This document shows positions 8,460 to 14,068 of a DNA stretch of 43,968 nt, in pieces. The stretch's first letter is position 1. Each line of letters starts with the position of its first letter. This DNA is from an uncultured Pelagibacteraceae bacterium (GTDB lineage Bacteria > Pseudomonadota > Alphaproteobacteria > Pelagibacterales > Pelagibacteraceae), in assembly GCA_902519375.1 (NCBI GenBank), contig CABYJS010000008.1, positions 1-43,968 on the forward strand, in the 5' to 3' direction. The translations under genes were made by a program, and so were the position numbers. Under the pieces are notes generated by a model. The model worked only from the letters and a program-made list of their open reading frames with translations, did not search any database and had not been told where the DNA came from.

Positions 8460-9602
8460 ATGAATTTTGGACCATCAAGAGCTTCGGCTATTGAAAACTT
8501 AAATAAATTTGTCGATCAAAACTTATTTGAGTATTCGAGGTTAAGAAATTTTGACTTTGGTCCAGACAATAGATCTAACGTCTCTTGTTTGTCCCCATAT
8601 ATTACTCACGGAGTTATAAGTGAACTAGAAGTAATCAAAAAATCACTTAATAAATTTTCATTTTCTAAAAATGAAAAATTCATTCAAGAAGTTTTATGGA
8701 GAACTTATTGGAAAGGATGGTTAGAGTTAAGACCTGTCGTTTGGATGGATTATTTAAGTGAACTTAAAAAAATTCGTGAGGAATTTAAAGACAACGTCGA
8801 TTACAAAAATGCTACTGAGGGTAATACAAATATCGAATGTTTTAATGAATGGGTAAAGGAATTAAAAAAAACTAATTATTTACACAATCATGTAAGAATG
8901 TGGTTTGCAAGTATATGGATTTTTACTTTAGATCTGCCTTGGCATCTTGGTGCAGAATTTTTTATGAAGCATCTTTATGATGGAGATGCTGCATCCAATA
9001 CTTTGGGATGGAGATGGGTTGCTGGCATTCAAACTCAAGGTAAAAATTATCTTGCAAGCGAGTGGAATATAAAAAAATTCACTAACAACAGATTTAGTAA
9101 TATTAAGTTGAGCGAGAATGCACCACCAAAAGTCTCTGGAAAAGCTTACTCTATTGTAAAACAAGATTTTAGTAATTCTGAAATTAATGAGAATCAAAGC
9201 TTATTAATTTTTGAAAATAATCTATCTTTTGAGATCACTGATTTTAAGAATAATAAATTTAAAAAGATTTATTTAATTTTTAATAAAAATGAAAATAGGT
9301 CTATTAAACTTAGTGAAAAAGTATTGGAATTTAAGACCTTTCTAACCAAGGATCAGGAGCAAACATTGAAAAATAATTCTATTAATTGTGAAGTAATAGA
9401 TATAAGTGAAATTAAAAATATCTCTGATCAAATTATTGCTCTTTATCCAACAGTTGGTGAAAATTTAGATTATTTAAATTTAAATAATTTAAAATTAAAT
9501 TTTTTATATAGAAAGCTTGATCAATATTCCTGGCAATATTGTAATAAAGGTTTTTTTAATTTTAAAAATTATATTCCAAAAATAATTTCAACATTTAATT
9601 AA
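8460..9602 (+). CDS. Short photolyase/cryptochrome-like FAD-binding protein without N-terminal antenna domain
   Basis: This 380-aa protein begins directly in the FAD-binding helical domain of the photolyase superfamily. Visible motifs are SCLSPYITHGVIS (42-54), WRTYWKGWLELRP (80-92), HNHVRMWFASIWI (142-154) and DGDAASNTLGWRWVAGIQTQ (174-193), the last holding the Asp that faces flavin N5 in photolyases. The usual N-terminal Rossmann antenna domain is absent. Instead a C-terminal segment of about 150 residues looks alpha/beta (KKIYLIF, then ISDQIIALYPTVGENLDYL) and ends YSWQYCNKGFFNFKNYIPKI. DNA repair by light is the likely role, but the lesion is unknown. It could instead be a cryptochrome-like sensor. 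Confidence 0.85.
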   Translation: MNFGPSRASAIENLNKFVDQNLFEYSRLRNFDFGPDNRSNVSCLSPYITHGVISELEVIKKSLNKFSFSKNEKFIQEVLWRTYWKGWLELRPVVWMDYLSELKKIREEFKDNVDYKNATEGNTNIECFNEWVKELKKTNYLHNHVRMWFASIWIFTLDLPWHLGAEFFMKHLYDGDAASNTLGWRWVAGIQTQGKNYLASEWNIKKFTNNRFSNIKLSENAPPKVSGKAYSIVKQDFSNSEINENQSLLIFENNLSFEITDFKNNKFKKIYLIFNKNENRSIKLSEKVLEFKTFLTKDQEQTLKNNSINCEVIDISEIKNISDQIIALYPTVGENLDYLNLNNLKLNFLYRKLDQYSWQYCNKGFFNFKNYIPKIISTFN

Positions 9603-9610
9603 GATAGATA

Positions 9611-10300
9611 TTATCTTGCAAGTTTAATAAATATATCACCCATCCCCGCTTCTAAATTTTCTAAAGGAGTATTGTTTCTTAATTCACAAAATCTGCCTGT
9701 AACTTGATGATTTTTAACAAAGTCTATATCATCTTTTTTGCACTTTCTTCCTTTGTGCAGTAAACCTATTACTATTCGTCCATTAAGATTATAAACTTGA
9801 TCGTTGTTAATCTTTTTACCATTACAAAAATAATCCTTATTTACTCTGGAAGGAAAGTCTTTTTTATTACAAGGATTTTTTATTGTGAATACGTAAAATT
9901 CTTTTAAACCATCTAAAAATTTATGTTTCATCTTCTCAACCTCAGAATATTTCATAATATCACATGAACAAGGAATGCAGCATTTATAATAATTACCACA
10001 AATTTTTTCTTTAGTTTTGCTCTCATTGGCGTATAAAAAATTTGGTTCACTATCTGGATCAATCAATGATCCAGAAACTGCACAATATAGCTTATTAAAC
10101 TCTTTAAAATCTTTATAAGTAATCTTTTTATCAATAATGTATTTAAAAAACTTTGGTCCTGCAGCGTTTCTATTTTGATCAGGGAATATTCTTGACCAAT
10201 CAGTAATTAACTCTTTGTGGTAATTTTTTTCGTCTGCGATTGTTTCAAATTGAAATAATGCGAAAAATATTAAAAAGAATTTAGATAAAGTTTTTTTCAT
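9611..10300 (-). CDS. Exported cysteine-rich protein of unknown function
   Basis: I do not recognise this 229-aa protein. A signal peptide covers about residues 1-22 (cleavage near TIADEKN). The mature part has ten cysteines, five of them clustered in CGNYYKCCIPCSCDIMKY, a motif that could bind a metal or be held by disulfides. The C-terminal half has RIVIGLLHKGRKC and TGRFCELRN. The ATG overlaps the stop of the FG-GAP/ASPIC gene (ATGA), so it is the last gene of the photolyase-DUF2256-FG-GAP operon. It converges with the short photolyase gene, whose stop is 8 nt away. Confidence 0.7.
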   Translation of the reverse strand: MKKTLSKFFLIFFALFQFETIADEKNYHKELITDWSRIFPDQNRNAAGPKFFKYIIDKKITYKDFKEFNKLYCAVSGSLIDPDSEPNFLYANESKTKEKICGNYYKCCIPCSCDIMKYSEVEKMKHKFLDGLKEFYVFTIKNPCNKKDFPSRVNKDYFCNGKKINNDQVYNLNGRIVIGLLHKGRKCKKDDIDFVKNHQVTGRFCELRNNTPLENLEAGMGDIFIKLAR

Positions 10301-11715
10301 TTTTGCTTTATAGTAACTGTTTGATTTAGTGAGTTAATTTCAATTAAATTTTTTTTTCCATTAGTCCATTTAATTTCTACTTTAAAATCTTTTTCATTTT
10401 TTCTAATTCCATAATGTGCTACAGGCTCCATTTGACATAGATAACCTGATCCAGCATCGATAGTTTTAGAGTGTTTTCTTTGATTAGTAAGTAATGTAAC
10501 TGTCGCTCCTCTTGCTGGAGCACCAAATTTATTTATAGGCTTAATTCTCAAATATTTACTATGCTTATTAACTTTTGCCTTGTACAAAGTAAGTGATTGC
10601 TCTTTGCTTTCACCACGTGCAACAAGTAACTCTAGAATTCCATCATTATCAATATCGGCAACAGCTGCTCCTGTTCCATAACCATCAGCTTCCATACCTG
10701 TATTTAGTTTAATCTCCTCGAATTTACCATTTTCTTTAATCTTAAATAATCTATTAGGCTCTGCTATATTGTTCATAAAAACTTCGTCAAAACCATCATT
10801 GTCAAAATCTGCGGAAATAATTGTTCTAATTCTTGATGGTTTGTCGAATTTTTTATTTCCTATATCTTTAAATTGATCGTCTTTCAAAACATAAGCTCTG
10901 TGATAACCTAGCCAATTGCCACTTAGAATATCTAGTCTTCCACGATAATATATATCTGATAATGCTGTACCTCTGCCATTTTGAATTACGTCATCTACTC
11001 GGTATTCAAAAGCTACGTCCTCAAATTTGCCATTCTTATTTTTAAATAAATAATTTGCGCCTCTTTCATTCGCAGCAAAAATATCTGATCTATCAGTTAA
11101 AATATGCCCTGAAACTACCGCCCTACCTCCAGTCACATTATCTAGATTTAAATCTACTGCATTATCTTTTATTTCATCACTCTCAATCTCATAAAATCTT
11201 GTAGGTCCTCCATAGTTGGCTACATATATACCATATTTACCGTTTCCTTTTCTATCGACACAAACTACAGATCTTCCTGCGGTTAAATTTAAGTTTTTTC
11301 TATTATTTTCAAGCTCGAATAAATCAAAATAGTTATTATCTTTAATATCAATTAATCTGTCAGAGTACCTTTTAACTCCACTATATGTATCAGTATTTAG
11401 AAAATAAATTTCTTCAAAACCATCCCTGTCTATATCACAAGCTGCAACTCCAATTGTTCGTCTAAAAGGATCTGAAAAAATATCTTGTTGATTTATATTC
11501 TTAAGTTTTCCGTTTTTAAAAGAAAGTGCTAAATTAGGATAACCAAAACCTGTAACTATAAACTCATAATTACCATCCAAATCAACATCTGAAACGGAAA
11601 TACCATAACTAAGTCTTTTATTATTATCATCAATAATTTTTGACAAATCTTCAAAGAATTCTGCTCGTAGATTGTTGATAGATATCAATAAGAAAAATAT
11701 TATAAAAAATTTCAT
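10297..11715 (-). CDS. Exported FG-GAP/VCBS repeat protein with C-terminal ASPIC/UnbV domain (CRTAC1-like)
   Basis: This 472-aa protein has a signal peptide (MKFFIIFFLLISINNLRAEF). Repeated calcium-binding-type blades follow: DVDLDGNYEFIV, DIDRDGFEEIYF, DRKGNGKYGIYVAN, DFDNDGFDEVFMNN and DIDNDGILELLVARG, consistent with an FG-GAP beta-propeller. The last 90 or so residues (NKFGAPARGATVTL, SGYLCQMEPVAHYGI) are an ASPIC/UnbV domain, as in human CRTAC1. The frame stays open to a TTG at 11742, but the ATG at 11713-11715 is preferred because it overlaps the DUF2256 stop (ATGA) and gives a clean signal peptide. The ligand is unknown; a periplasmic or surface binding role is inferred. Confidence 0.88.
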   Translation of the reverse strand: MKFFIIFFLLISINNLRAEFFEDLSKIIDDNNKRLSYGISVSDVDLDGNYEFIVTGFGYPNLALSFKNGKLKNINQQDIFSDPFRRTIGVAACDIDRDGFEEIYFLNTDTYSGVKRYSDRLIDIKDNNYFDLFELENNRKNLNLTAGRSVVCVDRKGNGKYGIYVANYGGPTRFYEIESDEIKDNAVDLNLDNVTGGRAVVSGHILTDRSDIFAANERGANYLFKNKNGKFEDVAFEYRVDDVIQNGRGTALSDIYYRGRLDILSGNWLGYHRAYVLKDDQFKDIGNKKFDKPSRIRTIISADFDNDGFDEVFMNNIAEPNRLFKIKENGKFEEIKLNTGMEADGYGTGAAVADIDNDGILELLVARGESKEQSLTLYKAKVNKHSKYLRIKPINKFGAPARGATVTLLTNQRKHSKTIDAGSGYLCQMEPVAHYGIRKNEKDFKVEIKWTNGKKNLIEINSLNQTVTIKQK

Positions 11716-11840
11716 TTTTTTGATGAACATTTTTTTGAACAATATTTAACCTTTTCCCAATTCAATCTCCATTTTTTTCTCCATTTAAATGATCTAAGAC
11801 ATATAGGGCAAGTCTTGGAAGGTAAATTCTCTTTTTTCAT
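11712..11840 (-). CDS. DUF2256 family zinc-finger-like protein, 42 aa
   Basis: This is a tiny gene of 42 codons. The protein begins MKKENLPSKTCPICLRSFKW and continues RKKWRLNWEKVKYCSKKCSS, matching DUF2256 almost end to end. Cysteines at 11, 14, 34 and 38 (CPIC and CSKKC) look like a zinc-binding site. It starts 1 nt inside the photolyase stop (TAATG) and its stop overlaps the next ATG (ATGA), so all three are coupled. DUF2256 genes are, to my knowledge, often next to or fused with cryptochrome/photolyase genes, which fits this position. The function is unknown. Confidence 0.9.
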   Translation of the reverse strand: MKKENLPSKTCPICLRSFKWRKKWRLNWEKVKYCSKKCSSKK

Positions 11841-13330
11841 TAAACTGTATTTAATTTAATAAATTTATCAGCTTCAGATAAGATTAATTTTTTTCTATCT
11901 TTTTTCATCTTATCAAAAATATGTACCATCATAGATAGTCTAGGATTTTTTGAAAAAAACTTTCTATTTCGATCAATAAATCTCCAATAAAGACCATCCA
12001 TTGTATTGCACCAGTCTCCTTTTTTAAAATCCATCATTTTCATGAAATAAGCAGATCCGCAAATATAAGGTTTAGTTGCAAATATTCCACCATCACTAAA
12101 TAATCCCATACCATAAACATTTGGAACCATCACCCAGTCGGAAGAATCTACGAACATTTCCATAAACCATTTATAAACTACAACTGGTTTAATCTCACAA
12201 AGGTTCATAATGTTTGATAAAATCATTAGTCTTTCAATATGGTGGGACCAACCATTGTTTAATGCGTTTTTAATAGCATAATCTAATGGGGGTAAACCTG
12301 TTGTTCCATCATACCAAGATTTTTTCATTTTTCTATTTTGTTTGAAAAAGTTTCTTGTTTCCATTTCATTTGAATAGGATTGATATATTCCACGCATAAA
12401 CTCTCTCCAACCAATTACTTGACGAATGTAACCTTCTAACGAATTCATTCTTATTTTATTTTTTTTATGAAAGTCTAAAACTTTTTGAATAATCAATTCA
12501 GGGGTTATTAATCCTAAATTAATATAGGGACTTAAAGCGCTATGAAATAAAATATTATCTTTCTGATTTACTGCATCTTCATAATCTCCAAATAGATTTG
12601 ATTTTTCTTTTATAAAAAAGTTTAAGAGTTTAACCACATCATCAAATTCCGTTGCTAACCAGAAGTTTTCTGTACTACCTGGATGGTCTTTGAATAATTT
12701 TTCAACAATTGGTTTTAATTTTTTTGTATGATTAGTTTCATTAATTTTAGGAAATTTTGGTATTGAAATATCTTTTGGTAATTTATTTCTATTATCTTCA
12801 TCAAAGCTCCACTTTCCTCCTATGGGATTTCCATCTGCACCCATCAATATTCCAGATTTTTTTCGAACCTCTTTATAAAATGTTGCCATAAAAGGTTTTT
12901 TAGATTTTTCCAAATAATTTTTAAATTCTCTTCTTGAATTTAAAAACATGGGTGTTTGGACTATATTCCAATTAATTTTTTCTTTTTTTAAGAACTGAGA
13001 AATCTTTTTTTCAAAAAATTTATCTTCAATTTCAAAACTAGAAATTTCTTTAATCTTTTTTGAATTTATAATCTTTTTTAATTTTTTAAGGTAATCATCT
13101 TTAAATTCCTTGTCTTCAATTTTTATGTAATCTAATTTGAATTTATTTTTTTTAAGTTTGTCAGCATAAGATCGCATGGAAGACAAAAATAATAGTATTT
13201 TCTGTTTATGGTGTTTTTCATAAGTGCATAAACCATTGTCTTCAGCCATAAAGAATATATGGTCTTTTTTGAAGCGGTCGAGGTATTTTGATGGAAATAA
13301 TTGATTACCAAGTATAAAAAATAACTTCAT
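11840..13330 (-). CDS. Cryptochrome/photolyase family protein, FeS-BCP/(6-4) photolyase type lacking the CxxC iron-sulfur ligands
   Basis: This 496-aa protein has the DPRP-type N-terminal antenna domain (FFILGNQLFP, then FMAEDNGLCTYEKHHKQKI, residues 4-44). A FAD-binding helical domain follows, with YIRQVIGWREFMRGIY (301-316), WSHHIERLMIL (361-371), MVPNVYGMGLFSDGG (401-415) and LYWRFIDRN (447-455). This is the bacterial (6-4) photolyase/CryB lineage. Where classical members carry CxxC plus a later Cys for a [4Fe-4S] cluster, this protein has the shorter loop MDFKKGDWCNTMDG (433-446); only Cys378, Cys424 and Cys441 are nearby. It heads the operon with DUF2256 and two exported proteins and diverges from the SDR gene, 27 nt apart. 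Confidence 0.92.
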   Translation of the reverse strand: MKLFFILGNQLFPSKYLDRFKKDHIFFMAEDNGLCTYEKHHKQKILLFLSSMRSYADKLKKNKFKLDYIKIEDKEFKDDYLKKLKKIINSKKIKEISSFEIEDKFFEKKISQFLKKEKINWNIVQTPMFLNSRREFKNYLEKSKKPFMATFYKEVRKKSGILMGADGNPIGGKWSFDEDNRNKLPKDISIPKFPKINETNHTKKLKPIVEKLFKDHPGSTENFWLATEFDDVVKLLNFFIKEKSNLFGDYEDAVNQKDNILFHSALSPYINLGLITPELIIQKVLDFHKKNKIRMNSLEGYIRQVIGWREFMRGIYQSYSNEMETRNFFKQNRKMKKSWYDGTTGLPPLDYAIKNALNNGWSHHIERLMILSNIMNLCEIKPVVVYKWFMEMFVDSSDWVMVPNVYGMGLFSDGGIFATKPYICGSAYFMKMMDFKKGDWCNTMDGLYWRFIDRNRKFFSKNPRLSMMVHIFDKMKKDRKKLILSEADKFIKLNTV

Positions 13331-13357: not shown

Positions 13358-14068
13358 ATGTCAGAAAAATATATTGTTTTTGGTGCGACAGGTTCAATCG
13401 GATCCAGTTTAGCAGAACAATTAGTAAGTTCAGGAAATAAAGTTCATTTAGTTGCAAGAAATGAAGCTGAACTTAAAAATATTTCTAGCAAACTAGGGTG
13501 TACATCCACAGTAGCTAATGTTTTAGAGGAAGGGTTCATTGATAAAGTAAAGAATGATATTTCTGAAACAAAAGGAATTGCTTACTGTGTAGGATCAATT
13601 GATTTGAAACCTTTACGAATGGTTACAGAACAAGATTTTAATAAATGTATGAAGCTTAATCTTTATTCAGCTGTTGAAACAATTAAAGGATATCAAGAAA
13701 GTTTGAAAAAAAATAAAGGTTCAATTGTTCTATTTTCTACTGTAGCTGCACAAAGAGGATTTACAAATCATGCTATTATTGCTTCTGCTAAAGCAGCTGT
13801 TGAGGGATTAACTGTTTCTCTAGCTGCTGAATTTGCACCAAACATTAGAGTAAATTGTATCGCTCCAAGTTTAACTAATTCTAAAATTGCTGAGCCAATG
13901 TTAAAAAATAAAGCCCTCGCAGATGGAATAGCAAAAGCACATCCATTAAAAAGATTAGGAGAGGGAAAAGACTCAGCCTCGCTAGCAAAGTTTTTAATTA
14001 GTGAAGATAGTTCGTGGGTGACTGGACAAATAATTGCTGTAGATGGTGGAAGATCAAAACTTTCTTAG
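13358..14068 (+). CDS. SDR-fold protein lacking the catalytic tyrosine
   Basis: This 236-aa Rossmann protein has the NAD(P)-binding GATGSIGSS (9-17), an Arg after strand 2 (VARN, 32-35) that suggests NADP(H), the C-terminal VTGQIIAVDGG, and the usual AAEFAPNIRVNCIAPSL. Ser127 is present in LFSTVAAQRGF. The expected YxxxK is IxxxK (Ile141, Lys145, in HAIIASAKAAVEG), so the proton-donating Tyr is missing. It may be a binding or regulatory protein or use another acid. It diverges from the photolyase operon and its end overlaps the sugar dehydrogenase gene, so it belongs to this light-associated cluster. Confidence 0.88.
   Translation: MSEKYIVFGATGSIGSSLAEQLVSSGNKVHLVARNEAELKNISSKLGCTSTVANVLEEGFIDKVKNDISETKGIAYCVGSIDLKPLRMVTEQDFNKCMKLNLYSAVETIKGYQESLKKNKGSIVLFSTVAAQRGFTNHAIIASAKAAVEGLTVSLAAEFAPNIRVNCIAPSLTNSKIAEPMLKNKALADGIAKAHPLKRLGEGKDSASLAKFLISEDSSWVTGQIIAVDGGRSKLS

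Follow-up and report, generated by a model that had tools for sequence, protein, structure and literature searches.

The 42-residue DUF2256 protein (PF10013) encoded in a 43,968-nucleotide stretch of DNA from an uncultured Pelagibacteraceae bacterium (contig CABYJS010000008.1, GenBank assembly GCA_902519375.1; hereafter the window) belongs to a family whose functional link with photolyases is real and is closest with the prokaryotic 6-4 photolyase group (PF04244). Its gene, with a zinc-finger-like CxxC...CSxxC set, lies at positions 11712-11840 on the minus strand, directly downstream of a 496-residue photolyase of this group (PF04244 DPRP plus FAD_binding_7; 11840-13330, minus strand). We regard it as an evenly balanced proposition that DUF2256 is a photorepair accessory, that is, a small, strongly basic, treble-clef-like zinc finger serving light-driven DNA repair. 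The usual account of a photolyase is of a repair enzyme made of one protein. If this reading holds, light-driven DNA repair would have a component so far overlooked, a tiny conserved protein kept with photolyases across phyla regardless of their iron-sulfur (Fe-S) cluster, and a widespread family of ~50 residues, which length cut-offs may pass over, would receive its first function.

An earlier note on this DNA, made from the sequence alone, had asked whether the small protein is a partner of the photolyase, and a functional link between them was borne out by co-inheritance in two phyla and in the window's own order, often between unlinked genes. In a sample of 299 genomes from one phylum, DUF2256 was found in 66, PF04244 in 66 and PF00875 in 146. 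DUF2256 and PF04244 were both present in 57 genomes, each was present alone in 9, and neither was present in 224 (Fisher p 9e-42); the same four counts by genus were 44, 5, 6 and 99 (p 3e-26). Every DUF2256 genome (66/66) carried a photolyase of PF04244 or PF00875, and DUF2256 was found in none of the 152 photolyase-free genomes of this sample in a single search. The association was specific for PF04244, with DUF2256 in 57/66 PF04244 genomes versus 9/81 of those with PF00875 alone. Since DUF2256 was scored in at most 23 first-look candidates per genome (at most 36 in the second phylum, below), single negatives may be false. Re-searching 63 of the 72 negative PF00875-only genomes with the DUF2256 alignment A1, with at least 112 candidates or all of them scored, gave no DUF2256 match in a search that carried no positive control; elsewhere A1 gives known copies 57 to 92 bits. 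The same alignment, used on 22 PF04244-only genomes (9 from the phylum sample and 13 from the window's order), gave no convincing match, the best having an E value of 0.01 and an internal stop.

For the second phylum the sample was centred on the genome of a Microcoleus locus. Of its 194 genomes, 89 had DUF2256 and 57 had PF04244, with both in 54, DUF2256 only in 35, PF04244 only in 3 and neither in 102 (p 2e-20). Within the window's order (147 genomes) DUF2256 was found in 119 and PF04244 in 126: 113 genomes had both, 6 and 13 had one alone, respectively, and 15 had neither. Restricting this set to the 105 genomes that are at least 90% complete gave counts of 89, 4, 3 and 9 for both, DUF2256 only, PF04244 only and neither (p 5e-8), and two of the three PF04244-only cases (G056 and G138) were fragments at contig starts. 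The Fisher test assumes independent genomes, an assumption that does not hold here and against which the collapse by genus and the second phylum serve as guards; where the two genes are linked, their joint loss can be one event. DUF2256 without a PF04244 match was seen in the window's order in G096, G106, G008, G023, G073 and G104, the G106 gene lying ~1.1 kb from a contig start. Caulobacter vibrioides and Synechococcus elongatus each carry both families.

DUF2256 and photolyase genes were also repeatedly adjacent. The named loci are the best 80 of at least 563 confirmed DUF2256 loci, ranked by similarity to a Pseudomonas-like first row, so that these are not an even sample, and some end at contig ends. 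A photolyase-family gene was present in the stretch in 45/80, and within 300 nucleotides (nt) on the same strand in 39/80; these 39 comprised 23 PF04244, 8 DASH, 6 l242p (our working name for a PF00875 clade first found at L242:2338-3882) and 2 of short photolyase-like (SPL) type. The rough chance of such a pairing is 0.05% per locus, assuming five such genes in 3 Mb. Amongst the 35 named loci with no photolyase in the stretch, PF04244 was found elsewhere in 24 genomes and was absent from 11. The only family to recur among nine neighbouring proteins scanned from photolyase-free stretches was leucine aminopeptidase, which two Erythrobacter loci had in common. In two Pseudomonas genomes without PF04244 (L122 and L123), DUF2256 lies beside the same uncharacterised family, phrog_34034, on the opposite strand.

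Distances and gene orders varied between lineages. Of 113 pairs in the window's order, 112 were measured (G121 was left out), using photolyase ends estimated from the domain start: the two genes were at most 500 nt apart in 69 pairs and at most 5 kb apart in 4 more, whilst in the other 39 they were separated by over 5 kb or sat on different contigs. Some of the different-contig pairs could be assembly breaks; pairs in the one-contig genomes G001, G007 and G009 are clearly unlinked. In the second phylum, 5 of 54 pairs were adjacent (30 or 133 nt), 26 shared a contig but were separated by 25 kb or more, and 23 were split between contigs. The five adjacent pairs came from genomes of 1.6-1.9 Mb, a size that suggests picocyanobacteria, with DUF2256 upstream of photolyases without the Fe-S cysteines. 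The photolyase precedes DUF2256 in the window's family and in Pseudomonas loci, whilst DUF2256 comes first in G004 of the window's order, in the five small-genome cyanobacterial cases and in Bacteroidota loci, and from this difference in order adjacency probably arose more than once. The l242p clade was matched at an E value of 1e-50 in 24/299 genomes and, by coordinates, sat directly beside DUF2256 in eight (G153, G162, G213, G281, G284, G288, G320 and G362); DUF2256 was present in all 21 genomes with both l242p and PF04244 and in none of the 3 with l242p but no PF04244. The best solved-structure match of l242p was 4u63, at 135 bits only.

Plasmids carry the pair as well. Twelve plasmid DUF2256 regions were opened, one of them unannotated: a photolyase was directly beside DUF2256 in L234, L235, L366, L368, L369 and L371 (divergent in L371) and one gene away in L236, whilst L237, L364, L365, L367 and L370 had no photolyase in the stretch. 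Five PF04244 plasmid copies bear the C..C...CP motif. DUF2256 was further encoded on 32 viral contigs, 25 of which (L202-L226, including some duplicates such as L203 and L204) have nearly identical copies with Lys instead of the nearly invariant Tyr that precedes CS. Amongst the proteins scanned from L203, L213, L224, L229 and L231 were integrase, repressors, O-like and DnaC-like replication proteins, Erf/RecT, terminase and portal, and these five contigs are therefore temperate phages or prophages; Erf or RecT genes lie near DUF2256 in L203 and L213. The single protein scanned from L228 was of no phage family and that from L232 was a ribonucleotide reductase. Parts of the DNA surrounding the L203 copy are similar to phi80 and to Pantoea/Erwinia phage regions, with no record covering 80%, and 201 bases around this copy had no match in E. 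coli genomes. No DUF2256 copy was found in the 50,697 INPHARED records at the limits used.

The window protein is a typical member of its family, with a Pfam match of 63.7 bits against a cut-off of 25 covering positions 1-39 of 40, the family's cysteine set, LPxK and WRKKW core, and no difference seen; NCBIfam gave no match at an E value of 0.001. The CxxC...CxxxC set pointed out in the earlier note is present as CPIC...CSKKC, and in 61 homologues from the window, genome and viral loci P7, C14, W20, R21, W24, W28, V31, C34, S35 and C38 were invariant and C11 nearly so. Since the family is conserved over phyla with ten invariant columns, this small open reading frame (ORF) is not a chance one. 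Net charge was +13 over the 42 residues and averaged +8 in the 61 homologues (range +4 to +13). The metal-free AlphaFold2 model (predicted local distance difference test, pLDDT, 85.3; predicted template modelling score, pTM, 0.49) shows a treble-clef-like arrangement of two short strands with a C-terminal helix. Foldseek placed gyrase-bound YacG (4tma, four chains) and a human FCS finger in its five top ranks, at E values of 0.41 to 1.7 that do not reach significance, and VIA-align gave Z 3.0 against FCS and 2.6 against YacG with unrelated rows close behind at 2.5 and 2.1. Profile comparison was similarly weak, hhalign giving a probability of 40 over 28 columns against E. coli YacG and the YacG profile 11.8 bits, below its cut-off of 25.5; a sequence search of the PDB returned insignificant matches only (ribosomal L24 and others). 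The likeness is thus weak, and the model suggests that DUF2256 may be a basic treble-clef-like finger with YacG and FCS fingers as its nearest folds, the conserved cysteines probably binding zinc. DUF2256 is presumably COG4338, and we take DUF329 to be YacG. PMC4047054 groups DUF2256, zf-FCS and DUF329 in the TRASH clan. DUF2256 resembles YacG (DNA gyrase inhibitor, PF03884) and other TRASH fingers in a short CPxCG..W...CSxRC finger.

The photolyase of the window scored above the Pfam cut-offs for DPRP (PF04244, 225.6 bits) and FAD_binding_7 (35.4 bits), and the nearest relatives of known structure are PhrB of Agrobacterium, the Caulobacter and Vibrio 6-4 photolyases and CryB. Its AlphaFold2 model (pLDDT 91.9, pTM 0.92) superposed on PhrB (4dja/5kcm; PMC3204975) with a Foldseek TM score of 0.93. 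His366, Tyr424 and Tyr430 of PhrB, which PMC4619345 gives as needed for repair or lesion binding, correspond to H364, Y422 and Y428 and were invariant across 30 aligned rows. The window protein is thus predicted, by domain content and modelled fold, to be a prokaryotic 6-4 photolyase with a PhrB-like fold and 6-4 repair activity. Where PhrB has its electron-transfer residue Trp342, the window protein has Tyr340, with a Trp at 339, whilst the equivalent of Trp390 is kept as Trp388.

As the earlier note had recognised, this photolyase has none of the four Fe-S ligands. PhrB, as described in the FeS-BCP papers (PMC3204975, PMC4619345), carries a 4Fe-4S cluster on four cysteines, whereas the corresponding columns (PhrB Cys 350, 438, 441 and 454) read P, gap, gap and N in the window protein, and a shifted Cys (GDWC) falls outside them. 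To judge from this alignment it is not of the FeS-BCP subtype. All four cysteines were likewise absent from the 30 loci of the window's order (L032-L061, L033 being the window's own copy), from eight more photolyases of that order (L265, L266, L268, L270 and L272-L275) and from seven linked named loci. In a tree of 64 chosen rows, 30 Fe-S-less rows including the window fell on one side of a branch with support of 100/100, together with three rows from second-phylum genomes of 1.6-1.7 Mb; PromaPL was not included by name. L100, L106 and L107 were excluded from the photolyase hidden Markov model because the chosen ORF was mismatched, and L025 gave an empty core.

The lack of ligands beside a protein with four conserved cysteines speaks for the idea, raised as a question in the earlier note, that DUF2256 gives a metal site to a cluster-less photolyase or, in another form of the idea, helps to assemble a cluster. 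We now consider this very improbable. Amongst 35 of the 36 linked photolyases of named loci (the partial L163 was left out), 28 keep all four cysteines and 7 have none, and DUF2256 lay within 300 nt on the same strand of 20/28 cysteine-bearing and 6/7 cysteine-free photolyases. The count by Fe-S class that the earlier note had proposed likewise turned against a metal supplier, since in the second phylum DUF2256 accompanied 32/34 photolyases keeping the cysteines and 8/9 lacking them (43 of 57 classified, with 4 unclassifiable and 10 unread; L292, L350, L351 and L355 have gaps at the Fe-S columns and L362 is partial). A role solely in cluster assembly likewise fails, DUF2256 being retained on the Fe-S-less side of the tree. 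The protein is thus present whether or not the photolyase has the cluster, and neither replaces it nor serves solely to build it; its association with photolyases is independent of the cluster. We give equally little credence to the view that the pair is adjacent merely because a compact genome has dense genes and short spacers. The DUF2256 gene does fill the space between photolyase and FG-GAP genes exactly, as had been described: it meets the photolyase gene at TAATG, with base 11840 common to both, and its stop TGA (11714-11712) overlaps the FG-GAP start ATG (11715-11713) as ATGA, so that the FG-GAP gene is joined equally tightly. The overlaps on which the earlier note had based coupled translation are therefore real, but mean little by themselves, since 13/32 same-strand neighbours in the window overlap (49 ATG ORFs from a simple ORF script), by 1 base in five cases and 4 bases in three, and the overlap of photolyase and DUF2256 is ordinary for the window. 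Dense packing does not account for co-occurrence in two phyla, in one of which 49/54 pairs are non-adjacent, nor for the 39 pairs of the window's order that lie on other contigs or more than 5 kb apart with both genes still kept.

The main rival to a photorepair accessory is a shared regulon, in which DUF2256 would be a light- or UV-stress protein with another target (for example a topoisomerase, as for YacG), co-inherited with photolyases through the same stress; we find this possible but hold it with some doubt. It would suit the best Foldseek ranks and the weak YacG profile match, as well as the stress-type neighbours seen in single cases (MsrB, lipocalin, CFA synthases and DUF1295) and the phage and plasmid copies that have no nearby photolyase, and it would also suit the fact that nearly one protein accompanies photolyases of different type. 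A shared regulon alone, however, leaves unexplained both the contrast between PF04244 and PF00875 genomes and the repeated direct pairing, and the tail that follows the finger in YacG has no counterpart in DUF2256, the alignment stopping at YacG residue 34 of 65. If DUF2256 is instead a photorepair accessory, the prokaryotic 6-4 photolyase would be its main partner, with other photolyase types in some lineages, and it would most likely act at DNA, not as a supplier of a cofactor, and help the photolyase to reach lesions in the cell or to hold on to them. Action at DNA is the most likely mode because one nearly invariant surface goes with several photolyase types whose common ground is DNA. We infer binding of zinc and DNA, contact with photolyase and some effect on repair.

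Several observations weigh against the photorepair-accessory reading. DUF2256 was missing from 9/66 PF04244 genomes of the phylum sample, also on the second search, from 3/57 in the second phylum and from Haloferax volcanii, which has PF04244, and it is thus not obligatory; conversely, 35/89 DUF2256 genomes of the second phylum had no PF04244. No photolyase lies near the plasmid DUF2256 copies in Pantoea, Erwinia, Azospirillum, Achromobacter and Hirschia, and of the 32 viral contigs L227 alone showed a photolyase-family gene in the stretch retrieved, leaving 31 with none. That DUF2256 is so extremely conserved across different photolyase partners points to a target elsewhere than on the photolyase surface. 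A scan of the examined loci for stop-to-stop ORFs of 120 aa or more found no fusion of DUF2256 with photolyase; long open frames around some DUF2256 matches gave no photolyase match. A broader version of the photorepair reading, which we think unlikely, is that DUF2256 is a general factor bringing photolyases to DNA in several phyla and that the stand-alone copy in the early region of temperate phages turns the host photolyase to phage DNA. A search with E. coli YacG found no relative among the viral contigs.

Prokaryotic 6-4 photolyases without an Fe-S cluster have already been described (PMC9178010, PMC4619345). The former sets out an Fe-S-less subgroup M that includes Prochlorococcus PromaPL, and the latter reports the cysteines to be missing from 7% of 464 members; the window photolyase resembles subgroup M in its PF04244 and FAD_binding_7 domains, PhrB fold, absent cysteines and retained His364, Tyr422 and Tyr428. 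The main text of the subgroup M paper contains neither 'zinc' nor 'small protein' and does not name DUF2256. No function for DUF2256 was found in the literature searched, nor any link between DUF2256 and photolyases in a search whose scope mostly excluded subscription journals and bioRxiv; the family is named in a small-protein database paper and a TRASH-clan paper. According to PMC9649867, photolyases in operons had been reported only twice before, neither time with a zinc protein in the passage concerned.

The next gene of the run (10297-11715, minus strand) encodes an FG-GAP/UnbV_ASPIC protein by Pfam. Longer upstream starts exist for this ORF, so that the start at 11715 is a choice, and nothing here places the protein in a photorepair module. 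On the other side of the photolyase lies a divergent SDR oxidoreductase gene (13358-14068, plus strand; Pfam). The SDR was considered as a fixed third member and rejected: relatives occurred in 11 searched loci with very uneven strength (42 to 316 bits), and the window SDR found no relative in a Rhizobium plasmid stretch that has an SDR at the same place. The source draft genome comprises 872,961 bases in 39 contigs, and listed genomes of its order range from 0.7 to 1.5 Mb. A second photolyase-like gene of SPL type (8460-9602, plus strand) lies 2.1 kb from the window DUF2256 gene and has FAD_binding_7 only, with no N-terminal antenna domain found by Pfam. Homologues of this gene share a stretch with DUF2256 in L129, L130, L137, L145, L167, L168, L176 and L181, and the SPL type was seen in DUF2256 stretches of Rhodobacteraceae, Flavobacteriaceae and Verrucomicrobia loci.

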